The notes under the pieces: generated by a model
Database searches by the model: none
What the model saw: the letters and a program-made list of their open reading frames with translations, nothing else
Told to the model about the DNA's origin: nothing
Shown: positions 132 to 28,387 of the stretch, in pieces
Layout: every line of letters starts with the position of its first letter
Position numbering within the stretch: the stretch's first letter is position 1
Program-made: the position numbers and the translations under genes
Source of the DNA: Acidithiobacillus sulfuriphilus
GTDB taxonomy: Bacteria > Pseudomonadota > Gammaproteobacteria > Acidithiobacillales > Acidithiobacillaceae
Direction: 5' to 3'
Assembly: GCF_003721225.1 (NCBI RefSeq)
Contig: NZ_RIZI01000171.1
Location: 1 to 31,180 of the forward strand
Length of the DNA stretch: 31,180 bases

Positions 132-148
132 CGCACCACGGCGGTGCA
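132..148 (+). promoter_or_regulatory. NtrC-like enhancer dyad
   Basis: The sequence CGCACC-ACGGC-GGTGCA matches the NtrC consensus TGCACC-N5-GGTGCA at 11 of the 12 specified positions. Its centre is near -76 relative to the start predicted from the sigma-54 box at 190-205. A weaker copy, GGCGCT-GTCGT-GGTGCA, lies at 101-117, and a GGTGCT half-site lies near 155. Paired sites at such distances are usual for NtrC-activated promoters. The match is seen directly; binding by NtrC is inferred. Confidence 0.6.
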
Positions 149-189: not shown

Positions 190-205
190 TGGCACAAGTT
201 GTGCT
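190..205 (+). promoter_or_regulatory. Sigma-54 (-24/-12) promoter of the nirB operon
   Basis: TGGCAC-AAGTT-GTGCT fits the RpoN consensus TGGCACG-N4-TTGCW. The invariant GG (191-192) and GC (203-204) are exactly 10 nt apart. Deviations are A for G at position 7 and G for T at position 12. Transcription would start near 216, which places the whole terminator leader inside the transcript. The NtrC-like dyad upstream supports nitrogen control. Confidence 0.65.
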
Positions 206-215
206 TTGGATCATG

Positions 216-307
216 CAACGCCCTCTCTGGAGAGGGTTCGCAGTCTGCGACAAAGACGTCGTCGGGTGAACAGCCCGCGGCGTTTTTTTATTTTCTGGAG
301 AGACAGC
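216..307 (+). promoter_or_regulatory. ANTAR-type antitermination leader RNA of the nirB operon
   Basis: The predicted leader holds two hairpins and then a terminator. The first (221-236) has stem CCCTCT/AGAGGG; read with a hexaloop it is UCUGGA, with G at loop position 4 but U rather than A at position 1. The second (247-262) has stem GCGAC/GUCGU closing hexaloop AAAGAC, with the A1 and G4 typical of ANTAR target RNAs. Positions 252-262 are also the outer 5' arm of the terminator, so the two folds exclude each other. This is the architecture described for NasR- and NasT-controlled leaders. The NasT-like protein encoded at 8225-8803 is the likely ligand. The structure is seen; the regulation is inferred. 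Confidence 0.6.
252..289 (+). terminator. Intrinsic terminator (attenuator) in the nirB leader
   Basis: Positions 252-266 pair with 274-287 around loop UGAACAG. The stem has 14 pairs with one bulged U at 262 and three G-U pairs. The 3' arm runs into seven T (283-289). The stop lies 18 nt before the nirB ATG, so it acts inside the operon's own leader rather than at the end of the upstream gene. Confidence 0.75.
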
Positions 308-2758
308 ATGACCCTGCAACTCATTTCCCAACGCAAATCTCGTTTGGTGGTCGTGGGCAACGGCATGGCCGGGATGCGTACGGTGGAGGAATTGCTGAAG
401 ATGGCGCCGGATCTCTACGCGATCACGGTCTTTGGCGCCGAGCCCCACCCCAACTACAATCGCATCCTCCTGTCTCCGGTGCTCGCCGGGGAAATCACGG
501 TGGACGAGATCATTCTCAACGATTGTGACTGGTACGAGGCGCACGGCATCGCATTGCGGCTGGGGGAGCCGGTGCTGAAGATCGATCGCGTCCGCCGCGA
601 GGTACGCAGCGCCGATGGCAGCACGACGCCCTATGACCGCCTCCTCCTGGCGACGGGCGCCACGCCCCTCCTGCCGCCCATCACCGGCATGGATCTCGCC
701 GGGGTGCTGGCCTTTCGCAATATCGGTGACGTCGAGCAGATGCTGGTGGCGGCGCGGCATGGCGGCCACGCCGTGGTCATCGGCGGCGGCCTGCTCGGCC
801 TGGAGGCGGCCCACGGTTTGCTGGCGCGCGGCATGCAGGTCACCGTCGTCCATCGCCATGCCTGGCCCTTGAGCCAGCAGGTGGATGCGGCGGGCGGCGC
901 CTTGCTGCGCCAGGCCCTGGAAAGCCGGGGGGTGCGTTTTTTGCTGGGCGGGCAGGCGAAGGCGCTACTGGGCACGACGGCGGTGGCGGGCGTGCGCCTC
1001 GGCGACGGTAGCGAGATCGCGGCGGATCTGGTGGTCATGGCGGTGGGGATCCGTCCCAACATGGCCCTGGCCCAGGCAGCGGGGCTCCATTGCGAGCAGG
1101 GCATCGTCGTCAACGACACGCTGCAGACCTTCGATCCCCGCGTTTACGCCGTCGGCGAGTGTGTGCAGCATCGTGGCAGCACCTACGGCCTGGTAGCCCC
1201 CCTCTTCGAGCAGGCCAAGGTGGCCGCCAACCACCTCGCCGAGTACGGACAGATGCGCTATACCGGCTCCATGACCAGCACCAAGCTCAAGGTCAGCGGC
1301 ATTGACCTCTTTTCCGCCGGAGACTTCATGGGCGGTGCCGACAAGGAGGAAATCACCCTGCTGGACGGCACCCACGGGGTCTACAAAAAGGTCGTGGTGC
1401 AGGACAACCGGGTGATCGGCGGTCTGCTCTATGGCGATACCAGCATCGGCCCGTGGATCTTCCAGCTCATGCGCGACGGCACGGATATCTCGGCCTTTCG
1501 CGATCACATCCTCTTTGGCGAGACCCATCTGGGCGATGCCGGCCATGCAGGCGAGAGCCAGGCCGCGCGCCTGCCCAATACGGCGGAGATCTGCGGCTGC
1601 AACGGGGTATGCAAGGGCGCCATCGTCAAGGCCATTCGCGAACAGGGCCTCTTCACCCTGGAGGAAGTGCGCAAGCAAACCAAGGCCAGTTCCTCCTGCG
1701 GCTCCTGTACCGGGTTGGTGGAACAGCTCCTCGCCAGCACCCTCGGTGGCATCTATGATCAAACCCCGAAAAGGCGGGCCCTCTGCGCCTGCACCGAGCT
1801 CAGTCATGAGGAGCTGCGGGAAGCCATCGCGGCGCAACACCTGCTCTCCGTGCGGGATGTCTTCGCCGCCCTCGACTGGCGGCATCCGGGGGGCTGCGCC
1901 ACCTGCCGCCCCGCGGTCAATTATTACGTGCGCACCGCCTGGCCCGCCCAGGCCCTGGATGACCCCCAGGCCCGTTTCATCAATGAGCGCGCCCACGCCA
2001 ACATCCAGAAGGATGGCACCTACTCGGTGGTGCCGCGCATCTACGGCGGCATCACCAGCCCGGCGGAGCTCAAGCATATCGCCGAAGTCGCGGAACGCTA
2101 TCAGGTGCCCATGGTGAAGTTCACCGGCGGCCAGCGCCTGGACCTCCTCGGGGTGCGCAAGGAAGACCTGCCCAAGGTCTGGGCCGATCTGGGCATGCCT
2201 TCGGGACATGCCTACGGCAAGGCCTTGCGTACGGTCAAATCCTGTGTGGGCACGGAGTTCTGCCGCTTCGGCACCCAGGACAGCACCAGCCTGGCCATTG
2301 ATCTGGAACAGGCCCTGGAACGCATGTGGGCGCCGCACAAGGTCAAGCTTGCGGTGTCCGGCTGCCCGCGCAATTGCTCCGAGAGCACCATCAAGGACTT
2401 CGGCATCATCGGCGTGGATTCGGGCTGGGAGTGCTATGTGGGCGGCAACGGCGGGATGAAGGTCCGGGCGGCGGAGCTGCTGTGCAAGGTTCCCACCGGC
2501 GCGGCGGTCATCGAGATGGCCAAGGCCTTTCTGCAACTCTATCGCCAGGACGCCACCTATCTCGAACGCACCGCCCCCTGGGTGGAGCGAGTGGGACTGG
2601 ACAGCATCAAGGCGCGCATCGTCGATGACGCCGCACAGCGCCAGGCCCTGGCCGCGGAGCTGGACTTTGCCATCGCCCAGGAGCGCGATCCCTGGGCGGA
2701 TGTGGTGGCCGGACGGCTGGACATCCATGCCGCGCCGTTGCGGCGGATTGCGGGCTAA
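308..2758 (+). CDS. nirB: Assimilatory nitrite reductase [NAD(P)H], large subunit
   Basis: The 816-residue cytoplasmic flavo-siroheme protein reduces nitrite to ammonium with six electrons from NAD(P)H. Its domains in order are an FAD/NAD(P) pyridine nucleotide-disulfide oxidoreductase (dinucleotide motif GNGMAG near residue 17 and a second GGGLLG further on), two Fer2_BFD cysteine modules (first C429, C431, C464 and C467; then CAC and CATC), and the ferredoxin-like half domain plus siroheme/4Fe-4S domain with C646-x5-C652 and C686-x3-C690. Length and order fit NirB. The ATG at 308 is preferred over upstream in-frame starts because GGAGAGA (297-303) precedes it and the upstream codons overlap the leader hairpins. 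It is the first gene of the operon; nirD follows after 66 nt. Confidence 0.95.
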   Translation: MTLQLISQRKSRLVVVGNGMAGMRTVEELLKMAPDLYAITVFGAEPHPNYNRILLSPVLAGEITVDEIILNDCDWYEAHGIALRLGEPVLKIDRVRREVRSADGSTTPYDRLLLATGATPLLPPITGMDLAGVLAFRNIGDVEQMLVAARHGGHAVVIGGGLLGLEAAHGLLARGMQVTVVHRHAWPLSQQVDAAGGALLRQALESRGVRFLLGGQAKALLGTTAVAGVRLGDGSEIAADLVVMAVGIRPNMALAQAAGLHCEQGIVVNDTLQTFDPRVYAVGECVQHRGSTYGLVAPLFEQAKVAANHLAEYGQMRYTGSMTSTKLKVSGIDLFSAGDFMGGADKEEITLLDGTHGVYKKVVVQDNRVIGGLLYGDTSIGPWIFQLMRDGTDISAFRDHILFGETHLGDAGHAGESQAARLPNTAEICGCNGVCKGAIVKAIREQGLFTLEEVRKQTKASSSCGSCTGLVEQLLASTLGGIYDQTPKRRALCACTELSHEELREAIAAQHLLSVRDVFAALDWRHPGGCATCRPAVNYYVRTAWPAQALDDPQARFINERAHANIQKDGTYSVVPRIYGGITSPAELKHIAEVAERYQVPMVKFTGGQRLDLLGVRKEDLPKVWADLGMPSGHAYGKALRTVKSCVGTEFCRFGTQDSTSLAIDLEQALERMWAPHKVKLAVSGCPRNCSESTIKDFGIIGVDSGWECYVGGNGGMKVRAAELLCKVPTGAAVIEMAKAFLQLYRQDATYLERTAPWVERVGLDSIKARIVDDAAQRQALAAELDFAIAQERDPWADVVAGRLDIHAAPLRRIAG

Positions 2759-2824: not shown

Positions 2825-3145
2825 ATGACGATGGCACAGTGGATGGAAGTAGGCAGTTTGATGGAGATTCCCCAGTTGGGCGGGCGTTACGTGGACACCC
2901 CCCGAGGGCAGATCGCCCTGTTGCGGAACGAGGCGGATGAAGTCTTCGCCGTGGAAAACCGTTGCCCCCATCGCGGCGGGCCCCTTGCCGAAGGCTTCGT
3001 GTCCGGGCGGCTGGTCTTTTGCCCGCTGCACAACTGGCAGATCGACCTCGACAAGGGCGAGGCCCTGCCGCCCGATGTGGGTTGCGTCAAGACCTACCCG
3101 GTGCGTGTGGAGGAGGGGCAGGTCTACCTTGCTCTGACGGAATGA
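2825..3145 (+). CDS. nirD: Nitrite reductase small subunit, Rieske type
   Basis: The 106-residue cytoplasmic partner of NirB is a single Rieske-fold domain. The full [2Fe-2S] ligand set is visible as C47-P-H49 and C66-P-L-H69. Some NirD proteins, such as that of E. coli, have lost these ligands, so this one probably carries a real cluster. AAAGGA (2816-2821) sits 3 nt before the ATG at 2825; an internal ATG at 2831 could also serve. It lies between nirB and nasA in the same orientation. A free-standing Rieske ferredoxin is the alternative, but position and length favour NirD. Confidence 0.9.
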   Translation: MTMAQWMEVGSLMEIPQLGGRYVDTPRGQIALLRNEADEVFAVENRCPHRGGPLAEGFVSGRLVFCPLHNWQIDLDKGEALPPDVGCVKTYPVRVEEGQVYLALTE

Positions 3146-3185: not shown

Positions 3186-5978
3186 ATGGGCGGAGACATG
3201 AACACGGACATCCAGGCAGGGGCCGGTACGGTGGCGGTGCGGGAAACCCGTTCGGTCTGCCCCTATTGCGGCACCGGCTGCGGCGTGTTGATCCAGCACG
3301 ATGGGCAGCGGATGCTCGGTGTGCGCGGCGACCCCGATCATCCCGCCAACTTCGGCCGCCTGTGTACCAAGGGCCGTACCCTGCACCAGACCGTGCATGG
3401 GGCAGACCGCGCTGTCCAGCCGCTGTGGCGGGACCGGGACAGCGGCAGCCCCCTGCCATGGAGCGAGGCCCTCCACCGCGCTGCCGAGGGTTTTGCCGGA
3501 ATCATCCGCGCCCACGGCCCGCAGGCGGTGGCCTTTTATGTCTCCGGCCAATTGACTACCGAGGACTATTACGTTGCCAACAAGCTGGCCAAAGGCTTCA
3601 TCGGCACCAATCATATCGATACCAATTCGCGCCTGTGCATGGCCTCGGCGGTGGCCGGCTACAAATCGAGCCTGGGCATGGACAGCGTCCCCTGCGCCTA
3701 TGAGGATATCGACCTCGCCGACTGTATCTTCCTCATCGGCAGCAATACCGCCTATGCCCATCCCATCGTCTTCCGCCGCATCGAGGATGCGAAGGCCGGC
3801 AACCCCAATCTGCGCATCATCGTCGCCGACCCCCGGCGCACCCCCACGACCAGCATTGCCGACCTCTACCTGCCCCTCAAGCCCGGCACCGACGTGGCCC
3901 TTCTGCATGGCATCCTGCACATCCTCATCTGGGAAGGCTGGATCGACCGCGCCTTCATCGACACCCACACCGAAGGCTGGGAGGCGCTCAAGGCCCTGGT
4001 CCAGGACTACAACCCCCAGACCGTCGCCGAAACCTGCGCCATTGCCGTAGCCGACCTGCGCCGCGCGGCAGAGATCTTCGGCACCGCCCGGGCCGCCCTG
4101 TCCCTCTGGTGTCAGGGGCTCAACCAGTCCGCCCATGGTACCGACAAGAATACGGCCCTGATCAACCTGCACCTCGCCACCGGCCAGATCGGCAAGCCCG
4201 GTGCCGGGCCCTTCAGCCTTACCGGCCAGCCCAACGCCATGGGCGGCCGCGAGGTGGGCGGCATGCCTGCCCTCCTGCCCGGACACCGCGATGTGCTCAA
4301 CCCTGCCCATCGGGAGGAAATCGCCCGGTTCTGGGGGGTCGAAGGCATCTGCCCCGAGCCCGGCCTCACCGCCGTACCGCTCTTCCAGGCCATGGAGCGC
4401 GGCGAGATCAAGGCGGTGTGGATCGTCTGCACCAATCCGGTGCTCTCCATGCCGGACCAGGCGCAGGTCATCCGTGCGCTGGCCCGGGCCGAGCTGGTCA
4501 TCCTCCAGGACGCCTATCTGGAGACTGAAACGGGGGCCTACGCCGACCTGCTCCTGCCGGCGGCGAGCTGGGGAGAGCGCGAGGCCCTCGTCACCAACTC
4601 GGAACGCCGTATCAGCCATCTCGGCCAGGCCATCCCCGCCCCCGGAGCGGCCCTGCCCGACTGGGAAATCTTCCGCGATTTCGCCTATGCGCTGGGGGCG
4701 GCCCTGGATGAATCCGGGCAGCCGGCGCCGGCAATCATGGATGGTTCCTGGACCGCCCGCGCCCAGCGCCTCTTCGCCTTCTCCACGGCCGAAAGCGTCT
4801 TCAACGAATACCGCGAGACCACCCGGGGCCGGGATCTCGACATCACCGGCCTGTCCTTCGCCCGCCTCGACCGCGACGGTCCGCAGCAATGGCCCTTCCC
4901 GGAAGGCGCGGAGAAAGGCCGCGCGCGTCTCTACGGCGACGGCATCTTCCCCACCCCCAGCGGTCGCGCCCGTTTTCGCGCCCCTGCCTATGCCCCGGTG
5001 GCGGAGGACATCGACGCCCGTTATCCCCTGCGCCTCATCACCGGCCGCCTGCGCGACCAGTGGCACAGCATGTCACGCACCGGCAAGGTCACCGCGCTCT
5101 TCCAGCACAGTGAAGAGCCGCTGCTGGAAATTCATCCGCGCGATGCGCAACGGTTGGGACTGAAGGACGGCCAGTTGTGCCGGGTAAGCAGCCGCCGGGG
5201 CAAGGTGGTGGTCAGGGCGCAGGTCCTGGCCACCGCCCCCCCCGGCGTGCTCTTTTTGCCCATGCACTTCGGCACCCGCTTCGCTCCCGCCGGGGAATGC
5301 AACCGCCTGACCCTGCCCGCCATCGATCCGGTTTCCGGAGAGCCGGAATTCAAGCATACCGCCGTGCGGGTGGAGCCCCTGGCCTTTGCCTGGACCGGCG
5401 CCATCCTCGCCCTTCTTGATGACGAAGCGCAGTTCCTTGCCGCCCGCGCCGTGGCCCAGGGCTTTCCCTATGCCAGCCTCGCACGCATCGGGGGTGCTAC
5501 GCAAAATGGCTTTTTACTGCGCCTCGCCGCCGAAGAAGCACCCCCCGCCTGGGCGGTCCGGGAGTGGGATAGGGCACTGGGGATCGGCGGCGCTGATGCC
5601 CTGGATTACCAGGATCTGCGCCGGGGGGTAAGCAAGCGCATCTGCGTCCGCGCGGGCCGCCTCATTGCCGCCCGCCTCTTCGGCGAAACCGAAACCCTCG
5701 ACTGGCTGCGGGAACTGCTGCTCGCGGGGACCGATATCCAGCCCTACCGTCACGCCCTCTTCGCGCCCACGGTGCCGCAGCAACTCGGTGCCCAGGCCCC
5801 GTCGCATACGGTGTGCACCTGCCGGGGCGTGCGCGAAACGGTGATCTGCGCCGCCATCGCCCAAGGGGCGAAGAGCGTGGAGGCGGTGGCTCAGGCTTGC
5901 GGCGCGGGCAGCGAATGCGGCTCCTGTCGTCCCGAGATCAACGCATTGCTGCGCGCCCCGGTGCAGGAGGCCTCATGA
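3186..5978 (+). CDS. nasA: Assimilatory nitrate reductase, catalytic subunit
   Basis: The 930-residue molybdenum bis-MGD enzyme reduces nitrate to nitrite. The N-terminal 4Fe-4S site is C25-x2-C28-x3-C32 with C60 (motif CPYCGTGCG, then GRLCTKG). The likely Mo-ligand cysteine is C151 in NSRLCMAS. The molybdopterin oxidoreductase and MGD-binding domains follow, ending near residue 740. A C-terminal Fer2_BFD-like module holds C877, C879, C911 and C914, as in many NasA proteins, and probably accepts electrons. No Tat signal is seen, so the enzyme is cytoplasmic. The ATG at 3186 has GGAGAG upstream; a second in-frame ATG lies at 3198. The stop overlaps the next start (ATGA). No separate NasB-type reductase subunit is present. 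Confidence 0.93.
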   Translation: MGGDMNTDIQAGAGTVAVRETRSVCPYCGTGCGVLIQHDGQRMLGVRGDPDHPANFGRLCTKGRTLHQTVHGADRAVQPLWRDRDSGSPLPWSEALHRAAEGFAGIIRAHGPQAVAFYVSGQLTTEDYYVANKLAKGFIGTNHIDTNSRLCMASAVAGYKSSLGMDSVPCAYEDIDLADCIFLIGSNTAYAHPIVFRRIEDAKAGNPNLRIIVADPRRTPTTSIADLYLPLKPGTDVALLHGILHILIWEGWIDRAFIDTHTEGWEALKALVQDYNPQTVAETCAIAVADLRRAAEIFGTARAALSLWCQGLNQSAHGTDKNTALINLHLATGQIGKPGAGPFSLTGQPNAMGGREVGGMPALLPGHRDVLNPAHREEIARFWGVEGICPEPGLTAVPLFQAMERGEIKAVWIVCTNPVLSMPDQAQVIRALARAELVILQDAYLETETGAYADLLLPAASWGEREALVTNSERRISHLGQAIPAPGAALPDWEIFRDFAYALGAALDESGQPAPAIMDGSWTARAQRLFAFSTAESVFNEYRETTRGRDLDITGLSFARLDRDGPQQWPFPEGAEKGRARLYGDGIFPTPSGRARFRAPAYAPVAEDIDARYPLRLITGRLRDQWHSMSRTGKVTALFQHSEEPLLEIHPRDAQRLGLKDGQLCRVSSRRGKVVVRAQVLATAPPGVLFLPMHFGTRFAPAGECNRLTLPAIDPVSGEPEFKHTAVRVEPLAFAWTGAILALLDDEAQFLAARAVAQGFPYASLARIGGATQNGFLLRLAAEEAPPAWAVREWDRALGIGGADALDYQDLRRGVSKRICVRAGRLIAARLFGETETLDWLRELLLAGTDIQPYRHALFAPTVPQQLGAQAPSHTVCTCRGVRETVICAAIAQGAKSVEAVAQACGAGSECGSCRPEINALLRAPVQEAS

Positions 5979-7045
5979 GAACGCTGCCGCAACTCATCGG
6001 TGACGTGGCGCGCGGCAAGGAGCATGCCCGCGATCTCCCCGAGGATGAGGCCCAGGCCCTCTTTGGGGCCTGGCTTGCCGATGACCTCGACGCCTATAGC
6101 CAGGGCGCCTTGTGGACCGCCTATCGCATCAAGGGCGAATCCATGGAGGAATTGCTGGGCTTCGTGAGCGCCAGCGAGCACGCCATGCACCGCGTCAACG
6201 GCCCCGCAGGGCCCCTGCCCATCATCCTGCCCAGCTACAACGGCGCCCGCCGCGAGGCCAATCTGCTCCCCCTCCTGGCCCTGGTTCTGGCCCGCGCCGG
6301 GGTGCCCGTCCTGCTGCATGGGAGCCATGGCGGCGCAGCCGAGGATGCCGACCTGGCCCTCACCGACCACAGTCCGGCCAAGCGCGTCAGCAGTGCCGCC
6401 CTCCTCACCGCCCTCGGTCTGCCGGCGGCCGGCAGTCCCCAGGCCATCCATGACGATCTGCGCCAGCGGAACCTCGCCCACGCCCCCATCGATGTCCTCA
6501 GCCCCGGCCTGGCGCGCATCCTCGCCCTGCGCCGGCGGCTCGGCGTGCGCTCCAGCGTCCATACCGTGGTCAAGCTCATCAACCCCTTTGGCGGCCCCGC
6601 CATGCACTGCGCCGCCGTCACCCATCCGCCCTACCTGGAACGCCTCAAGGCATTCTTTGGCCGGACGCGGAGACGCGCCCTCTGCCTGCGCGGCACCGAG
6701 GGCGAGCCCTTCGCCCACCCCAAGCGCCGCCCCGCCCTCCTGGGCTGTGAGGATGGTGTCTGCACGACGCTGATGGAAAAAGACGGGCAGCCGCTACTCC
6801 GCCTGCCCGATCTGCCGGCCGATGGCGGCGTCACTGCCACCTGCCGCTTCATCGAAGAAGTCCTCAATGGCACCCTTGCCCTGCCCGATCCGCTCTTTGA
6901 TCAAGCGGCCTGCCTGCTCGTGCTGAGCGGACGCAGCCCCGATCTGGACGCCGCCGGAGCCGTGCTCGCAGCCATCCTGCCCGCGCAACGCCCGCACGCA
7001 TCATCCCGCAAGTCATTACCACCGTCCCCAGGAGCCCTCCCATGA
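5975..7045 (+). CDS. ybiB: YbiB/TrpD2-family protein (anthranilate phosphoribosyltransferase-like)
   Basis: The 356-residue protein has the TrpD2 layout: an N-terminal helical bundle (IGDVARGKEHARDLPEDEA), then a glycosyltransferase family 3 core with IPSYNGARREANLLPLLA, HGSHGG, a LGVRSSVHT segment and LRGTEGEPFA near residue 235. It resembles E. coli YbiB closely in motif order. Relatives have the phosphoribosyltransferase fold but lack tryptophan-synthesis function and are reported to bind nucleic acid. The gene overlaps nasA and cobA by ATGA at both ends, so translation is probably coupled. GGAGG lies 5' of the start. Its role in nitrate assimilation is unknown; its position inside the operon is the main clue. 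Confidence 0.8.
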   Translation: MRTLPQLIGDVARGKEHARDLPEDEAQALFGAWLADDLDAYSQGALWTAYRIKGESMEELLGFVSASEHAMHRVNGPAGPLPIILPSYNGARREANLLPLLALVLARAGVPVLLHGSHGGAAEDADLALTDHSPAKRVSSAALLTALGLPAAGSPQAIHDDLRQRNLAHAPIDVLSPGLARILALRRRLGVRSSVHTVVKLINPFGGPAMHCAAVTHPPYLERLKAFFGRTRRRALCLRGTEGEPFAHPKRRPALLGCEDGVCTTLMEKDGQPLLRLPDLPADGGVTATCRFIEEVLNGTLALPDPLFDQAACLLVLSGRSPDLDAAGAVLAAILPAQRPHASSRKSLPPSPGALP

Positions 7046-7818
7046 ACTGCCCGTCCAAGGTGTATCTCATCGGCGCCGGACCCGGCGACCCCGAACTCCT
7101 GACCCTCAAGGCCGCGCGTCTGCTCCAGACCGCCGACATCCTCTTTCACGACGCCCTGGCCAATCCGCGCATCCTCGATCTGGCGCGCCCCGACGCGCAA
7201 CGGGTCGATGTCGGCAAGCGCGGCGGTCGCATCTCCACCCCCCAGCTCAGCATCCAGGCGCAGATGATCCACGCCGCCCAACGGGGTCTCCAGGTCGTGC
7301 GGCTGAAAGGCGGCGATCCCTTCATCTTCGGCCGGGGCGGAGAGGAGTGCATGGCCCTCAGGGCCGCCGGCATCGCCTATGAAATCGTCCCCGGCATCAC
7401 CAGCGGCATGGCCGCCGCCGCCTACGCCGGCGTACCGTTGACCTATCGCGCCGTCAGCCAGTCGGTATTGTTGGTGACCGGCCACGAAGCGCCGGGAGCC
7501 GCGCCCGTGGATTGGCGGCGCATGGCGGGCGTCGCCGACACCCTGGTCATCTATATGGGCGTGGAGCGGGTGGAGAAAATCCGCGACGGCCTCCTGGCCG
7601 GCGGCCTCTCCCCAAGCACGCCGGCCCTGGCCGTGGAATGGGCCACCCTCCAGCAGCACGAGGTCCACAGCACCCTCGCCGACCTCCCCGCGCAGATCGC
7701 CCGCAACGGGCTGAAGAGCCCCGCCATCCTCGTCATCGGCGCCGTCGTCGAGATGTCCGCCTGCCTCTCCTGGCGGCCTAGCGGTTCCGGCGCATTGCCA
7801 CAGGCCGCCTGTTTATGA
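7042..7818 (+). CDS. cobA: Uroporphyrinogen-III C-methyltransferase (SUMT)
   Basis: The 258-residue SAM-dependent enzyme methylates uroporphyrinogen III at C2 and C7 to give precorrin-2, the branch point to siroheme. The N-terminal signature GAGPGDPELLTLKA, the VGKRGG stretch, RLKGGDPFIFGRGGEE and VPGITSG are all present and typical of SUMT. The length matches the single-domain enzyme; the CysG oxidase/chelatase half is absent. The start overlaps the ybiB stop (ATGA). With cbiX next, the operon carries part of the supply of the NirB cofactor. A precorrin-2 dehydrogenase is not seen in the window. Confidence 0.93.
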   Translation: MNCPSKVYLIGAGPGDPELLTLKAARLLQTADILFHDALANPRILDLARPDAQRVDVGKRGGRISTPQLSIQAQMIHAAQRGLQVVRLKGGDPFIFGRGGEECMALRAAGIAYEIVPGITSGMAAAAYAGVPLTYRAVSQSVLLVTGHEAPGAAPVDWRRMAGVADTLVIYMGVERVEKIRDGLLAGGLSPSTPALAVEWATLQQHEVHSTLADLPAQIARNGLKSPAILVIGAVVEMSACLSWRPSGSGALPQAACL

Positions 7819-7855: not shown

Positions 7856-8212
7856 ATGACCCAAGCCCATATCCTCCTCGCCCACGGGTCCCGCAATGCC
7901 GACTGGCGGCGGCCCTTCGAAGGCATCGCCGCCCGTTTTGGCGAGCGCCATCCCGAGCGCCGCGTCTTCCTCTGCTACCTGGAGATGTGGGCGCCGGACC
8001 TGCCGCAGACCATTGCCCGTGCCTATGCCGAAGGGGTCCGCCAGTTCCGCATATCGCCGCTGTTCTGGAGCAGCGGCCGCCATCTCCAGGAAGACCTGCC
8101 CCTCCTCCTTGGCGAACTGGAACAACGTTTCCCCGCGATCCGGATCAGCGTGGACGAACCCCTCGGCGAGCGTGAGCCCGTGCTTGCCGCCGTGCTCGAC
8201 GTACTGGCCTAA
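7856..8212 (+). CDS. cbiX: CbiX-type sirohydrochlorin chelatase
   Basis: The 118-residue single-domain protein has the short CbiX form. The LLAHGSR motif places one likely metal-binding histidine at H10, and H76 in SSGRHLQEDLP fits the second. The family inserts cobalt, iron or nickel into sirohydrochlorin. Here the neighbourhood (cobA, nirB) argues for Fe insertion giving siroheme (the SirB role). The ATG at 7856 follows GGAAAG at about 5 nt. It lies 37 nt after cobA and 12 nt before the regulator gene, so it belongs to the same operon. Confidence 0.85.
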   Translation: MTQAHILLAHGSRNADWRRPFEGIAARFGERHPERRVFLCYLEMWAPDLPQTIARAYAEGVRQFRISPLFWSSGRHLQEDLPLLLGELEQRFPAIRISVDEPLGEREPVLAAVLDVLA

Positions 8213-8224
8213 GCCCCGAGCTCC

Positions 8225-8803
8225 ATGTTCCGCGTCCTGCTCATTGACGACGACCACGACCGCGCCGTCGGGGTCAAGGCCTTGCTCGAAGCCGTCGGCC
8301 ATACGGTGATCGCCATCCTCTCCTGGGAAGCCACCACCCTGCACCGCCTCGACAGCCTGCGCCCGGATGTCATCATTGCCGATGCCGGCAGCCCGGAGCG
8401 TGATGCCCTGGAGCATATCGTCCTCCTCAGCGAAACCCTGGAACTGCCCGTCGTGGTGCTTGGTGCCGCCGGCGACGAAGACAGCATCCGCCGCGCCATG
8501 CGCGCTGGTGTGGCGGCCTATGTCGCCCACGGCATCTCCATCCACGACATCGCCCCCATCCTCAAGGTCGCCACCCTGCGCTACGCCGAACACCATAAGC
8601 TCAAGCGCGAACTGCAGGACGCCAAAAGCGAGCTATCCGCCCGTAAACGCATCGAAAAGGCCAAGGGCATCCTCATGCAGGACCTCGGTCTGAGCGAAGA
8701 CGATGCCCATCACCGCATGCGCCGCCTGGCCATGGACCGCGGCAAAAAGCTGGCGGAGATCGCCGAAGCGATCATTCTCACCAAGGAACTGGGAAAGCAT
8801 TAA
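8225..8803 (+). CDS. nasT: NasT-type ANTAR antitermination regulator
   Basis: The 192-residue cytoplasmic protein has an N-terminal receiver-like domain (about 1-120; acidic triad D8-D10, candidate acceptor D53) and a C-terminal ANTAR RNA-binding domain (about 130-185) with RKRIEKAKGILMQDLGLSE and the usual A..RMRRLAM helix. The expected receiver lysine is not apparent (YVAHG), as in other NasT-like atypical receivers. NasT promotes readthrough of nitrate-operon leader terminators. The leader at 216-289 has a fitting hexaloop hairpin. Relatives are often held inactive by the nitrate sensor NasS; no nasS is in this window. It is the last gene of the operon, 12 nt after cbiX. Confidence 0.88.
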   Translation: MFRVLLIDDDHDRAVGVKALLEAVGHTVIAILSWEATTLHRLDSLRPDVIIADAGSPERDALEHIVLLSETLELPVVVLGAAGDEDSIRRAMRAGVAAYVAHGISIHDIAPILKVATLRYAEHHKLKRELQDAKSELSARKRIEKAKGILMQDLGLSEDDAHHRMRRLAMDRGKKLAEIAEAIILTKELGKH

Positions 8804-8882
8804 CCTTGATCCGGCGGTTCCCGCACCCCCCAATGCCTGTACCCGCGAAGCGCCCCCTTGCCGGACGGCGCGGAGTGGATCC

Positions 8883-8893
8883 TGTGCTATGCT
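8883..8893 (+). promoter_or_regulatory. Possible extended -10 promoter upstream of glgA
   Basis: TGC-TATGCT (8885-8893) resembles an extended -10 element; no good -35 lies at normal spacing. It sits in the 319-nt gap between nasT and glgA (8804-9122). If used, it would give a leader of about 230 nt that contains the hairpin and T-run at 9047-9069. Apart from these two signals I see no gene or RNA family in the gap. Confidence 0.25.
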
Positions 8894-9046
8894 TCAAAAC
8901 AACGGGAATGTCTCCATGTCCATCCTTCCGGGCGCTGCTGTCGGGGTTCCTCAACCGTGGAGTCATCCCGGGTTCCGGCCGTGGCAATGGGCCCGGAGCG
9001 CCCGGATGTCCCGGTATGGGTCTGCCGTATTCCTTGGAGTCAGCCT

Positions 9047-9069
9047 TGCCGCCACCGGCGGTGCTTTTT
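9047..9069 (+). terminator. Intrinsic terminator between the nitrate operon and glgA
   Basis: CCGCC-ACC-GGCGG forms a five-pair GC stem extended by two G-U pairs (9047-9063), and five T follow at 9065-9069. It could end the nitrate operon 244 nt after nasT. It also lies only 53 nt before the glgA ATG, with little room for a promoter between, so it could instead be a glgA leader attenuator. Confidence 0.5.
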
Positions 9070-9122
9070 CTGGTCCGGGCGTAAGAAACAGCCATTTTGC
9101 GGTAATCCTCAAGGGAGATATT

Positions 9123-10595
9123 ATGTATGTGATTCAGGTGGCTACGGAATGTGCGCCGGCAGCCAAGGTGGGCGGACTGGCGGATGTGGTCTATGGCCTG
9201 AGCCGGGAATTGGAGATCCGCGGTCATGCGGTGGAAATCATCCTGCCCAAATATGTCAACATGCGTTACGATCAGATCCAGAACCTGCAGGTGAGCTATC
9301 GGGATCTCTGGGTGCCGTGGTATGGGGGTGCCATTCATTGCACGGTCTACTTCGGTTTTGTGCATGGCCTGAAATGTTTTTTCATCGAACCCCACTCCGC
9401 CGATCATTTTTTCGAGCGCGGTACTTATTACGGCTATCTCGATGACCACATGCGCTTCGCTTTTTTCAGCAAGGCCGCGCTGGAATTCATGCTGGAAACC
9501 GGCAAGCGGCCGGAAGTCATTCATTGCCATGACTGGCAGACGGGCCTGCTCCCGACCATGCTCTTCGAGATCTACAAATACCATGGGATGGAACATCCCC
9601 GCGTTTGTTACACCATCCACAACTTCAAGCACCAGGGTATCGCCGGAGAAAACATCCTGCGGGCCACCGGCCTCGGCCGCCCCTGGCATTATTTCCACCC
9701 CGACCGCCTGCAGGACGACCACAATCCCACGGCCATCAATTTCATGAAGGCGGGTATCGTCTATGCCAACTTCGTCACCACCGTATCGCCGCAGCACGCC
9801 TGGGAGGCACGACATACGGACCAGGGCTACGGCCTGGGCCATGTCCTCTACCGCCATCAGAACAAGTTTTCCGGGGTCCTGAACGGGCTGGACTATAATT
9901 TCTGGAATCCGCAGACCGATCCCCTGATACCGCACCATTACGACTACCAGGACCGGTCCGGCAAGGAAGGGGACAAACGCGCCCTGCGCGACCGCCTCTG
10001 GCTGCGCGATGACCGCAAGCCGCTGATTGCTTATGTGGGCCGCCTGGACTGGCAAAAGGGCGTACACCTCATCCGCCACGGCCTTTTTTATGCGCTGTGG
10101 AACAACGCCCAGTTCGTCTTGCTGGGCTCCAGTCCGGAATCGGGCATCAACGATTATTTCTGGCACCTCAAGAATTATCTCAACGAGAGCCCGGATTGCC
10201 ATCTGGAGATCGGTTTTAACGAGGAACTGGCCCATCTGATTTATGCCGGCGCGGATATGCTCATCGTGCCCAGTATTTATGAGCCCTGCGGCTTGGCCCA
10301 AATGATCGCCTTGCGTTATGGCACCGTCCCCATCGTGCGCGGCGTGGGCGGTTTGCTGGATACGGTATTTGATCGGGATTACAGCGATAAGCCCTTCCCT
10401 GAGCGCAACGGCTATGTTTTTTATCAGGACGACTATCCGGCCCTGGAATCGGCCATGGGGCGGGCCATCGCCCTCTGGCATGAAGAGCCCGACAGCTTTC
10501 ACGATCTGGCCGCCAACGGCATGGCTTGCGACTACTCCTGGAACAAGCCGGGAGAGTATTATCTAGGGATTTACGATTTTATTCGTGACCGATGA
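9123..10595 (+). CDS. glgA: Glycogen synthase (ADP-glucose type, GT5)
   Basis: The 490-residue GT5 enzyme extends alpha-1,4-glucan from ADP-glucose. The N-terminal K15-V-G-G-L motif (KVGGLADVVYGLS) matches the ADP-glucose-binding KxGGL of bacterial GlgA. The C-terminal half shows AYVGRLDWQKGV and PSIYEPCGLAQMIALRYG, the conserved acidic active-site region. Length is close to the 477 residues of E. coli GlgA. The ATG at 9123 has AAGGGAGAT just upstream; the longer open frame 5' of it has no family similarity. The GH57 gene follows after 15 nt, so the two are probably co-transcribed. A vanished or distant glgC is implied, as none is present here. Confidence 0.92.
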   Translation: MYVIQVATECAPAAKVGGLADVVYGLSRELEIRGHAVEIILPKYVNMRYDQIQNLQVSYRDLWVPWYGGAIHCTVYFGFVHGLKCFFIEPHSADHFFERGTYYGYLDDHMRFAFFSKAALEFMLETGKRPEVIHCHDWQTGLLPTMLFEIYKYHGMEHPRVCYTIHNFKHQGIAGENILRATGLGRPWHYFHPDRLQDDHNPTAINFMKAGIVYANFVTTVSPQHAWEARHTDQGYGLGHVLYRHQNKFSGVLNGLDYNFWNPQTDPLIPHHYDYQDRSGKEGDKRALRDRLWLRDDRKPLIAYVGRLDWQKGVHLIRHGLFYALWNNAQFVLLGSSPESGINDYFWHLKNYLNESPDCHLEIGFNEELAHLIYAGADMLIVPSIYEPCGLAQMIALRYGTVPIVRGVGGLLDTVFDRDYSDKPFPERNGYVFYQDDYPALESAMGRAIALWHEEPDSFHDLAANGMACDYSWNKPGEYYLGIYDFIRDR

Positions 10596-25315: not shown

Positions 25316-26253
25316 CGATGGAGGGGCAGATGGCGCGCCCGCCGACCATCGCCGGGCGCGCGCGCCGGGAAGGACTCATTTTTGGCGAATGTCTCTTTGA
25401 CCACTTCCCCGACGGCGATCGGGTAGGCGGCGCGCCCCTCAATGTGGCCCGCCATCTCTGGGCCCTGGGGCAGCAGCCGTTGCTGGTGAGCCGCGTCGGG
25501 CAGGATGGCGAGGGCGCGCGTATCCGTGATCTCCTACACACTTGGGGAATGGATGCGCGCGGCCTTCAGGAAGACCCCCAATATCCTACGGGCAGCGTCG
25601 AGGTGCTGCCCGATGCCGTCCTGGGTCACCAATTCCTCATCCTGCCCCGGCAGGCCTATGACCGGATTGCCTGGCCCGCCCAATTGCCCGCTTTGTCGCG
25701 GATCGCCTTCCTTTATCACGGCACCCTGGCCCTGCGGGAGCCGGGTTCGCGGGGCACCTGGGAGCGCCTGACCGGGCAAAGCGATTGGCGTTTTGTGGAT
25801 CTCAACCTGCGCGCACCCTGGTGGACAAGCGATCTGCTGGCGACCGTGCTTCCGGGTACGCGGGTGCTCAAACTGAATGCGGACGAACTCGGAACCCTGG
25901 CCCAGGCTTTTTCCCTCCAGGGGGGAGGGCGGCAAAGTCGGGTGGCCGACCTGGCGCAACGCTTTGCTATCGGCGAAGTGGTCATCACCCATGGCGCGGA
26001 GGGTGCCGTCGCCTGGGCGGGGGGCCTCTGGCAAGAATGTCCTGCCCCGGTGGTACGAGTCGAGGATTCCGTCGGCGCCGGTGATGCCTTTGCTGCGGTA
26101 TGGATGGTCGGCATTCTGCATGGCTGGCCGGTGGATCTGCGCCTCATCCGCGCCCAGGCACTGGCTGCGGCCATCTGCACAGTACGGGGGGCGTTGCCTA
26201 GTGATTCGGCATTCTATGCCCCCTTTCTCCGCGACTGGGGGCTGCACCCATGA
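25312..26253 (+). CDS. PfkB-family sugar kinase, probable fructokinase
   Basis: The 313-residue ribokinase-fold enzyme has the substrate-binding VGGAPLNVARHLWALG near 38-53 and the C-terminal PfkB signature DSVGAGDAFAA with catalytic Asp258. LNADEL and ITHGAEGA fit the nucleotide-binding part. Placed between a channel gene and sucrose-phosphate synthase, it most likely phosphorylates the fructose freed by sucrose synthase to fructose-6-phosphate, a substrate for new sucrose. ATGA overlaps at both ends show tight coupling. Other hexoses are possible. Confidence 0.85.
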   Translation: MTMEGQMARPPTIAGRARREGLIFGECLFDHFPDGDRVGGAPLNVARHLWALGQQPLLVSRVGQDGEGARIRDLLHTWGMDARGLQEDPQYPTGSVEVLPDAVLGHQFLILPRQAYDRIAWPAQLPALSRIAFLYHGTLALREPGSRGTWERLTGQSDWRFVDLNLRAPWWTSDLLATVLPGTRVLKLNADELGTLAQAFSLQGGGRQSRVADLAQRFAIGEVVITHGAEGAVAWAGGLWQECPAPVVRVEDSVGAGDAFAAVWMVGILHGWPVDLRLIRAQALAAAICTVRGALPSDSAFYAPFLRDWGLHP

Positions 26254-28385
26254 CGGACCAGGAAGGGCTTTATATCCTGATGCTCAGCATCCACGGACGG
26301 ATCCGCGGTGAACCCGAGCTGGGGGTCGATGGGGACACCGGCGGGCAGGTGGGCTATGTGCTGGACCTCATCAGGGCGCTGGACACCGATCCTGCGGTAG
26401 CGCAGGTGGACCTGCTCACGCGGCGCATCATGGATGTGCACGTGGACGCCGCCTATGCCCGGGAAGAAGAGCCTCTGGGGAAGAGGAGCCGTATCGTGCG
26501 TCTCCCCTTCGGTCCGCGGCGCTACCTGCGCAAGGAACTTCTCTGGGCCCACCTGGACTGCCTGGTGGACCGCTGCCTGCAGTTCATCCGCGCCCAGGGG
26601 CGCATACCCGACATCATCCATAGCCATTATGCCGATGCCGGTTACGTCGGTGTGCGCCTGGCAAGGCTGCTGGGGGTGCCGCTGGTGCATACCGGCCACT
26701 CCTTGGGGCGTAGCAAGCGTGAACGCCTCCTGGCGGCGGGGCACAAGGAAACGACCATTGACCGGGAATTCCATTTTCCGCAACGAATCGCCGCCGAAGA
26801 GGAAGTCCTCAACGAGGCCGCCCTGGTCATTGCCAGCACCCAGCAGGAAGTGGAGGAACAATATGGTCGCTATGCAGGACATCAGCGTGTCCGTTATGCG
26901 GTCATCCCGCCCGGGGTGCACCTGTCCCGCTTTGCTCCTGGCAGACGGCGGGGGGCTACGGCCTTGCTGGCGCAGTTGCGCCGTTTTTTACAGCATCCGA
27001 CACGGCCGCCCATCCTTGCCATTGCCCGGCCTGATGAAAAAAAGAATTTCGGCCGTTTGCTCCAGGCCTATGGCGAGTCGCCTGCACTGCAGGCCAGGGC
27101 CAATCTCATCCTCATCATGGGCCAGCGCGAGGACCTCAAGGACCTGGAGCATCCTGCGCGGCAGGTGATCGATGGCGTTCTGCAGGACATCGATCGCTAC
27201 GATCTCTATGGCAAGGTGGCCATCCCCAAGCAGCATGAGGCGGAGGAGATCCCCGAGTATTATCGTTTCGCGGCGGCCCACAAGGGGGTTTTCATCAACC
27301 CCGCCCTCACCGAGCCCTTTGGCCTGACGCTGCTGGAGGCCGCAGCATCGGGATTGCCGGTGGTGGCCACGGCCAATGGCGGTCCCCAGGAGATCCTGCG
27401 GCATTGCCACAATGGCCTGTTGGTGGACCCCCTGGACATCGCGGCCATCGGCCATGCCTTGTCCCAGGTCCTGGAAGACGGAACGGCCTGGCGACGCTGG
27501 GCGCGGAACGGCTTGAACGGCGTGCGCCGGGTCTACAGTTGGGAGGCCCACGCCGGTCGCTATCTCCTGGAGTTGAAGAAGCTCCTGCGCCGCCAGCGCA
27601 AATCACAGCGGCGCCAACGCGTGGCCCTGCATGAAACCAACAATATCCTGCCCTTGGCCGGTCAGGTGATCATGACCGACATCGACAACACCCTGGTGGG
27701 GGATACGGCCGGAACCCAGGCGCTCCTGGCCTGGCTGGATGCCCACCCGCAGGTGGCCTTTGGCGTCGCCACCGGACGCAATCTCAAACAAACCCTGAGC
27801 ATCCTGAAGGAATATGATATTCCGCGTCCCGACATCCTGATCACGGACGTGGGGACGCGGATCGTCTATGGCGCCAAGCTCCGCGATGATCTGGGCTGGG
27901 CGGGGCACCTGCGTCATCGCTGGTGGCGCGACGGCGTACTGGATGTCCTGAGAGACTGCCCCGGCTTGCGTCTGCAGGAGGCATCTACGCAAAGTGAATT
28001 CAAGGTGAGCTATTATGCCGACCCCAGGCGCCTGCCCTCACTGCCCGACCTGCGCCGCCGCCTGCGCGGGAACCATATAGCGGCCAATCTGGTCTTCTCT
28101 CATGAGCGCTTCCTCGATGTGCTCCCGGCACGGGCCTCCAAGGGTCACGCCATTCGCTTTCTCGCCTTCCGCTGGGGCTTGCCCCTGGGGGCGTTTCTGG
28201 CGGCCGGGGATTCGGGCAATGACATCGAGATGCTGGGCGGTGAAATGCTGGGCGTGGTGGTGGGCAACCATAGCACCGAACTGGCCCACCTCCAGGGCAG
28301 TCATCATGTCTATTTCGCCCAAGCGGAGTATGCCTTCGGGATTCTGGAGGGCATCGAACACTACGGTTTCGCCAAGGAGAAATAA
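26250..28385 (+). CDS. Sucrose-phosphate synthase fused to a HAD sucrose-phosphatase domain
   Basis: The 711-residue bifunctional enzyme should make sucrose-6-phosphate from a nucleoside diphosphate glucose and fructose-6-phosphate, then dephosphorylate it. The GT4 part (about 1-455) has DGDTGGQVGYVLDL near the N-terminus, HSHYADAGYVG, GHSLGRSKRERLL and the E355-x7-E363 motif (EPFGLTLLE). The HAD-IIB part (about 470-711) has the nucleophile motif D477-I-D479-N-T, a TGRNLKQT segment and AGDSGNDIEML, all catalytically intact. The start overlaps pfkB (ATGA) and sucrose synthase starts 2 nt after the stop. Confidence 0.93.
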   Translation: MTDQEGLYILMLSIHGRIRGEPELGVDGDTGGQVGYVLDLIRALDTDPAVAQVDLLTRRIMDVHVDAAYAREEEPLGKRSRIVRLPFGPRRYLRKELLWAHLDCLVDRCLQFIRAQGRIPDIIHSHYADAGYVGVRLARLLGVPLVHTGHSLGRSKRERLLAAGHKETTIDREFHFPQRIAAEEEVLNEAALVIASTQQEVEEQYGRYAGHQRVRYAVIPPGVHLSRFAPGRRRGATALLAQLRRFLQHPTRPPILAIARPDEKKNFGRLLQAYGESPALQARANLILIMGQREDLKDLEHPARQVIDGVLQDIDRYDLYGKVAIPKQHEAEEIPEYYRFAAAHKGVFINPALTEPFGLTLLEAAASGLPVVATANGGPQEILRHCHNGLLVDPLDIAAIGHALSQVLEDGTAWRRWARNGLNGVRRVYSWEAHAGRYLLELKKLLRRQRKSQRRQRVALHETNNILPLAGQVIMTDIDNTLVGDTAGTQALLAWLDAHPQVAFGVATGRNLKQTLSILKEYDIPRPDILITDVGTRIVYGAKLRDDLGWAGHLRHRWWRDGVLDVLRDCPGLRLQEASTQSEFKVSYYADPRRLPSLPDLRRRLRGNHIAANLVFSHERFLDVLPARASKGHAIRFLAFRWGLPLGAFLAAGDSGNDIEMLGGEMLGVVVGNHSTELAHLQGSHHVYFAQAEYAFGILEGIEHYGFAKEK

Positions 28386-28387
28386 CC

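Follow-up and report, generated by a model that had tools for sequence, protein, structure and literature searches.

A hexaloop hairpin overlapping the nirB leader terminator of Acidithiobacillus sulfuriphilus: a probable NasT-controlled attenuator with one canonical hexaloop

How might an ANTAR protein keep a leader terminator from forming when only one of the two leader hairpins carries a canonical hexaloop, with A at position 1 (A1) and G at position 4 (G4)? This question is raised by a 31,180-nucleotide stretch of Acidithiobacillus sulfuriphilus DNA (contig NZ_RIZI01000171.1, positions 1 to 31,180; referred to here as the window), which starts with the end of an open frame, followed by about 220 bases leading to nirB at position 308. 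A first-pass annotation had described an ANTAR-type hexaloop hairpin that overlaps the nirB leader terminator, and this was confirmed as a real observation. We put the probability at roughly 80% that transcription of the nirBD-nitrate reductase-siroheme-nasT operon is attenuated at positions 216-289 under the control of NasT, and that in the nirB and nasS leaders of the host family only the terminator-proximal hexaloop is canonical. This estimate starts from what is observed, namely the anatomy of the leader, its conservation, a single ANTAR gene, and a NasS-like gene elsewhere in the genome.

Anatomy of the leader and its operon

The features of the nirB leader are as follows.

133..147, forward strand: NtrC-like site (GCAC-N7-GTGC) upstream of the promoter, a perfect match to the consensus
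190..205, forward strand: sigma54-type promoter TGGCACAAGTTGTGCT, with GG at 191-192, N10, and GC at 203-204
216, forward strand: predicted transcription start, 12 nt past the -12 element, placed from the promoter geometry
220..237, forward strand: proximal (P1-like) hairpin, with a loop (TCTGGA when read as 6 nt) that is not of the A1/G4 type
247..262, forward strand: P2 hexaloop hairpin (loop AAAGAC at 252-257), antiterminator and predicted NasT site
252..289, forward strand: intrinsic terminator, stem 252-267/273-287, T-run 283-289

In P2, positions 247-251 pair with 258-262 (-5.1 kcal/mol when folded alone), and in the terminator, positions 252-261 pair with 278-287 and 263-267 with 273-277 (-20.6 kcal/mol, z -4.5). 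The coordinates and the A1 and G4 of the AAAGAC loop given in the first-pass annotation hold, as does its claim that the two folds exclude each other, because positions 252-262 are used by both. It had described a terminator of 14 pairs ending in seven T; the seven T stand, whereas folding yields 15 pairs. In the lowest-energy structure of 205-292, the terminator is formed (-36.1 kcal/mol, z -3.2); for an RNA running from 216 to either 262 or 264, the lowest-energy structure contains the hexaloop hairpin. In the proximal hairpin, the minimum-energy fold pairs 220-226 with 231-237; alternatively, six pairs (220-225/232-237) close the loop TCTGGA, with T1 and G4. An additional small hairpin (TCGCA GTC TGCGA) is predicted at 238-250 in the terminator state, where it overlaps the P2 5′ arm; this sequence is absent from the aligned relatives that were compared.

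A GG-N10-GC promoter was called in 17/19 nirB leaders of the host family. The NtrC-like site, with at most one mismatch of 8, was found in 17/19 upstream regions, compared to 58/1900 mononucleotide shuffles. The distance from this site to the P2 loop is 119 nt in the window vs. 159-164 nt in the 16 other regions that have the site, and so the position of the site in the window differs from that in relatives.

The genes that follow the leader are listed below.

308..2758, forward strand: nirB, nitrite reductase large subunit (TIGR02374, 918 bits)
2825..3145, forward strand: nirD, nitrite reductase small subunit (TIGR02378, 94 bits, above the cut-off)
3186..5978, forward strand: molybdopterin oxidoreductase with a C-terminal BFD domain (PF00384, PF04879, PF01568, PF04324)
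5813..7045, forward strand: YbiB-like gene (NF006005, 306.9 bits, cut-off 185, match from residue 60)
7042..7818, forward strand: uroporphyrinogen-III C-methyltransferase, siroheme (TIGR01469, 298 bits)
7856..8212, forward strand: small open reading frame, from the ORF list
8225..8803, forward strand: nasT-like gene, receiver and ANTAR domains (PF03861, 73.1 bits; PF00072, 40.5 bits)

The oxidoreductase is probably the assimilatory nitrate reductase, with a score against NF047855 (499 bits) that lies below the cut-off. The true start of the YbiB-like gene is probably later than that of the listed ORF; the location of such a gene within a nitrate assimilation operon is recorded as an observation in its own right. 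The small ORF was judged by eye and is presumably CbiX-like. Beyond nasT, the window contains a glycogen synthase ORF (8703-10595, GlgA from residue 141) and, at 26250-30793, a sucrose-phosphate-type gene adjoining a sucrose synthase gene.

The first-pass annotation had also placed a NasT-like ANTAR gene at the end of the operon, and its PF03861 match turned out to be the only ANTAR match in the whole genome. The encoded protein aligns with the EutV and NasR proteins of solved structure (61 and 38 bits, respectively). Of seven EutV residues compared that contact RNA (PMC8934654), four are identical (K143, K147, R168, and M172), and the other three are changed (N173 to D, as in NasR; R175 to G; R177 to K), with the offset in EutV numbering derived by hand from the alignment. 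Among the 29 genomes of the host-family sample, 19 have an ANTAR gene, 19 have nirB, and 18 have both, such that the two are kept or missing together in 27/29. The exceptions are G016, which has nirB without an ANTAR gene, and G020 (71% complete), which has an ANTAR gene without nirB. In one genome (G027:C81:3188-3329), the ANTAR match falls into two adjacent pieces, and the gene may be shifted or misassembled.

A NasS-like protein of the NMT1_2 family (265.5 bits; 393 amino acids from the chosen start) is encoded on another contig of the same genome, C178. No obvious signal peptide was seen by eye in this protein, and we infer that it is NasS and not a transporter subunit. In relatives such as G010, nasS, narK, nirB, and nasT follow one another on a single contig; C178 and the window would therefore be neighbors, with the break falling in the frame that separates narK from nirB, a frame that we take to be porin-like. 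At locus L010 (3525-5600, minus strand), molybdate-uptake-like and NadC/ModD-like genes were seen by eye upstream of nasS; the permease-like frame there, which has an unusual tail, may be shifted. The nasS-like matches of G003, G015, and G021 were each reported with one stop codon, which may be that of the gene end.

Conservation of the hairpins within and outside the host family

The window was scanned on both strands for A..G.. hexaloops (at least four pairs) with a loop or 3′ arm that a terminator also uses. It was found that there is one such site, at 252, relative to a mean of 0.325 in 40 dinucleotide-shuffled windows. In the 161-nt leader, an overlapping hexaloop with at least five pairs was obtained in 0/2000 shuffles. 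Therefore, given the number of sites expected by chance, the lone sequence is just suggestive at the scale of the window. The matter was settled by the relatives, because P2 with A1 and G4 is kept in all 19 host-family nirB leaders (the window included), and chance or a plain terminator was rejected on this ground. The pattern used (A..G.. between fixed stem letters) excluded 0 leaders. The loop reads AAAGGC in 18 leaders and AAAGAC in the window.

Compensatory changes in related nirB leaders, suggested earlier as a check on the hairpin, were found in part. At hexaloop position 5, the terminator has a G-C pair in 18 leaders and an A-U pair in the window, a two-sided change, and this is the nearest such change in the nirB leader outside of the proximal hairpin. 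The P2 stem is nearly invariant among these leaders and therefore lends no support by covariation. In the proximal hairpin, a six-pair stem near the predicted start is present in 19/19 leaders, with 114/114 pair cells standard and two-sided changes at 4/6 pairs (16 distinct rows), and the observed percentage paired was reached by 0/500 shuffles. The loop of this hairpin has A1 in 0/19 and G4 in 7/19 leaders (the window among the seven), and it is 5 nt long in six. Therefore, since the stem covaries and the loop is never A1, the proximal hairpin is a real, selected structure outside the ANTAR loop code. The absence of A1 from the proximal loop in the window had been pointed out before, together with the suggestion that the target varies the known two-hairpin motif, and both points are borne out by the relatives. 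In nirB leaders, this conserved hairpin would more probably serve the structure of the RNA (spacing, protection of the 5′ end, or prevention of mispairing within the leader) than act as an ordinary NasT site.

An upstream second hexaloop with A1 and G4 was found in 0/19 host-family nirB leaders. A scan for a hidden P1 covered the 120 nt upstream of P2 in 55 leaders and admitted stems of at least four pairs with two G-C pairs. In nirB leaders, it returned 2/19, namely one at 39 nt in L102, a leader predicted to start 36 nt ahead of its P2 loop, and one at 120 nt in L111; in nasS leaders, it returned 0/18 canonical hexaloops (at least four pairs) within 120 nt upstream. Among the three-pair candidates within 45 nt, three nirB leaders had AGCGAT (at 35 nt) and a fourth had AGCGGT; these were rejected as P1 because they clash with the conserved proximal stem. 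A canonical P1 in another register was thus rejected as well, the scan of 55 leaders having given only scattered weak or misplaced candidates in nirB and nasS leaders.

Two similar leaders are present on C178, before narK (36.1 bits with the Rfam narK model) and before the nasS-like gene (22.9 bits, weak). The 18 host-family narK leaders have A1 in P1 in 17/18 and G4 in 18/18, and their P2 has G4 in 18/18, A1 in only 2/18, and G1 in 16/18. The sole leader with G1 in P1 (L142) has A1 in P2, and the own-genome narK leader (L131) has A1 in both hairpins and an interrupted P2 stem. The count of canonical narK P1 hairpins varies with the filter, from 17/18 by loop letters to 16/18 and 14/18 by stem rules. 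In the host-family narK leaders, it is P1 that covaries (two-sided changes at 5/6 pairs), and P2 does not. L148 yielded no narK leader because it covers just the 3′ portion of a split narK, with the 5′ portion in L149.

The 18 nasS leaders all have A1 and G4 in the loop, with A, T, or C at position 3, G or A at position 5, and C or A at position 6; the search pattern itself required A1 and G4, and failures were 0/18. The distance from the predicted start to the loop is 10-12 nt in 12/18, which leaves no room for a second, proximal hairpin in these leaders. The own-genome nasS leader is unlike the others, with a distance of 24 nt and room for a small upstream stem; an ATGGCA three-pair hexaloop there was rejected as P1 because it is closed by three G-U pairs and was judged too weak. 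Five nasS leaders, all from one genus, have a promoter without GG, which was either uncalled or called too distant, and a P2 stem of just three pairs. Over the nirB, narK, and nasS leaders together, exactly one A1+G4 hexaloop is present per predicted transcript in 54/55 (with weak three-pair stems left out).

Other lineages were surveyed in the best 80 of 586 named loci with nirB plus one further locus, L169, from the same taxonomic order. At least 66 leaders of nirB, narK, or nasS-like genes were found to have P2 and a terminator; a sigma54 promoter was called in 57 of these, and the nine without a promoter call were excluded from the counts that follow. Among these best 80 of 586 loci plus L169, a canonical P1 lies beside P2 in 52/57 leaders (52/54 of those with at least 25 nt), relative to 162/5400 dinucleotide shuffles, whereas the same test gave 0/19 for host-family nirB and 16/18 for host-family narK. 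Five leaders lacked a canonical P1. In three of them (L017, L023, and L089), the leader as called was too short, probably because the scan took the upstream hexaloop for P2, and in the narK leader of L073, an AACGGC hexaloop on three contiguous pairs was seen by eye to have been missed by the filter. The fifth, the nirB leader of L093 (a metagenome-assembled genome of another lineage), has a non-ANTAR proximal loop (aggc TTTCTC gcct) beside a canonical P2 (AACGGC) and looks like a real second case. Pseudomonas-type nirB leaders (L058, L073, L079, L085, L088, L089, and L091) have three hexaloop hairpins, at about 41 and about 18 nt before P2 in addition to P2 itself. It seems that ANTAR hexaloops range from one to three per leader. 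We read the difference between 54/55 one-hexaloop leaders in the host family and 52/57 dual leaders elsewhere as a lineage-specific reduction of a dual-hexaloop target.

In 25 of the other-lineage leaders, both stems covary (score 0.63 vs. 0.19 when shuffled), and the fourth pair from the P2 loop has 14 changes on both sides; because the P2 stem covaries in these leaders, P2 is supported as a real helix. A covariance model, R1, was built from these 25 dual-hexaloop leaders outside the host family (L014 and L038 were dropped from 27 because P2 was misaligned). The own-genome narK, nasS, and nirB leaders scored 24.7, 16.8, and 14.0 bits, respectively, and the last of these values (E 1.4 genome-wide) is not significant. 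Five matches outside the three nas leaders outrank the window nirB leader genome-wide, of which one on C89 (19.7 bits) was set aside because of its position within long open frames. Over the host-family loci, with E up to 10, R1 marked nirB in 19/19 (10.5-19.4 bits) and nasS in 18/18 (7.5-16.8 bits), all weak, and narK in just 3/18 (L131, L142, and L147; 24.7-24.9 bits). Therefore, R1 is a poor yardstick for membership within the host family, and this result shows that the host-family narK leaders, although canonical in P1 by their letters, are far from the leaders of other lineages. A covariance search had been proposed in the first-pass annotation. The Rfam narK RNA model RF03032 aligned over its full 72 positions with 191-262 of the window at 30.0 bits, which is below the gathering score of 43.2, and R1 gave the 14.0 bits noted above.

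A predicted mechanism and its alternatives

The binding of NasT at the nirB leader, the response to nitrate, and the role of the proximal hairpin are parts of a mechanism that we infer from the sequence as follows. In nitrogen-limited cells, transcription would begin near 216 through NtrC and sigma54 and would end at the terminator unless NasT holds the hexaloop. Nitrate or nitrite would release NasT from NasS, as in Paracoccus (PMC5424462). Free NasT would then grip the AAAGAC loop of 247-262 and keep the 5′ arm of the terminator from pairing, such that polymerase could read through into the operon, nasT included. Because nasT lies behind the switch, induction would feed back on NasT, and because nasT is last behind this switch and nasS lies behind a leader of its own, induction would raise the activator and the inhibitor alike.

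A plain constitutive attenuator, consisting of a terminator with incidental hairpins and without ANTAR control, is very improbable. The chance of an overlap in a window of this size is not negligible, as given above, but A1 and G4 of P2 are kept in every nirB and nasS leader while positions 3, 5, and 6 of the nasS loop vary, nirB and the ANTAR gene are present or absent together in nearly all of the genomes sampled, and similar elements precede narK and nasS.

How NasT would use such a leader is less certain. A leader without a canonical P1 should work poorly, because removal of P1 or mutation of its A1/G4 lowers induction in eutP (PMC3369931), and the dimer is described as having to touch each of two hexaloops to stop termination (PMC8934654). 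We tentatively suggest, at somewhat less than even odds, that the NasT of the host family antiterminates from one canonical hexaloop, with a rule of at least one A1+G4 hexaloop per leader in place of two, and that the dual target may have been reduced in three ways within one cluster: to a stem with a free loop in nirB, to a hexaloop almost at the RNA 5′ end in nasS, and, in narK, to a canonical P1 beside a P2 in which A1 has become G1. It is rather unlikely that the target is an ordinary dual-hairpin one, in which NasT of the host family still recognizes the proximal hairpin, either by the stem or by a less strict code for the loop. The covarying proximal stem lies in the right place in all 19 nirB leaders, G4 is kept in seven of their loops, and the G1 of most narK P2 loops suggests that A1 is not under strict conservation in the host family; yet the proximal loop never has A1, has G4 in a minority, and has 5 nt in six leaders, and most nasS leaders have no room for such a hairpin. 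We also doubt that the proximal hairpin is a separate element, either a site for another RNA-binding protein or a 5′ stabilizer, added to a single-hexaloop NasT site. The conserved stem, the free loop, and the location at the predicted 5′ end of the transcript would be consistent with such an element, but no candidate partner was identified, and the nasS leaders lack the hairpin.

If antitermination from one canonical hexaloop is correct, the reduced leaders bear on the question of single-hexaloop action raised in the 2022 study of the EutV-RNA structure (PMC8934654). One ANTAR protein and three natural kinds of leader occur in one cluster, so the same protein could be tested on all three. The scores also suggest that models built on two A1/G4 hexaloops would miss such leaders, since R1 gave E 1.4 genome-wide for nirB and left 15/18 narK leaders unmarked at E up to 10.

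Comparison with known systems

Antitermination of nitrate assimilation by NasT is a mechanism that is already known. A 2012 study described ANTAR leaders before genes for nitrate/nitrite transporters and nitrite reductase (PMC3369931), and NasT leaders have been studied in Paracoccus and Bradyrhizobium (PMC5424462, PMC6759348). Of the two leader hairpins in Paracoccus, one had a strong effect and the other a small one (PMC5424462). In the EutV-RNA structure, one hexaloop is the minimal binding site, and single-hexaloop action was said to need more work (PMC8934654). Among the matches listed in our searches of the largely open-access literature, no paper was found on ANTAR leaders in Acidithiobacillus (the accessible part of PMC5438186 contains nothing on nitrate) or on single-hexaloop NasT leaders (that of PMC8164766 describes two stem loops), and no mention of the narK RNA motif was found among the matches listed.

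The consensus of RF03032 holds GGCaCAgcucUUGCU, which is sigma54-like, followed by a hairpin with the loop AACGGC and then by ACGAC AAAGAC GUCGC. The window differs in that it scores below the gathering score and its proximal hairpin is two bases off that of the model, with another loop. The second hairpin of the model (ACGAC AAAGAC GUCGC) is not marked as paired in RF03032. By this likeness, RF03032 probably represents a sigma54 promoter joined to an ANTAR dual-hexaloop leader.

The window shares with NasS-NasT systems (Paracoccus, Bradyrhizobium, Azotobacter, and Pseudomonas) a receiver-ANTAR protein, a NasS-like protein, and a leader before nitrate/nitrite reductase genes (PMC5424462, PMC6759348). 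Paracoccus has nasT and nasS together, upstream of nasA (PMC5424462), whereas in A. sulfuriphilus, the nirB operon ends with nasT and a separate leader precedes nasS. The leaders of eutP/EutV, nasF/NasR, and amiE/AmiR likewise have an A1+G4 hexaloop in the 5′ arm of a terminator and an ANTAR protein of the same pathway (PMC3369931), and the spacing between loop starts is 26 nt in the window compared to 24 in eutP (A29 and A53; PMC3369931). The host-family nirB leaders differ from the eutP/EutV type in that their proximal hairpin lacks A1 in 19/19. The departure from the known systems, as judged from the sequences, is the missing second canonical hexaloop in the nirB and nasS leaders of the host family.
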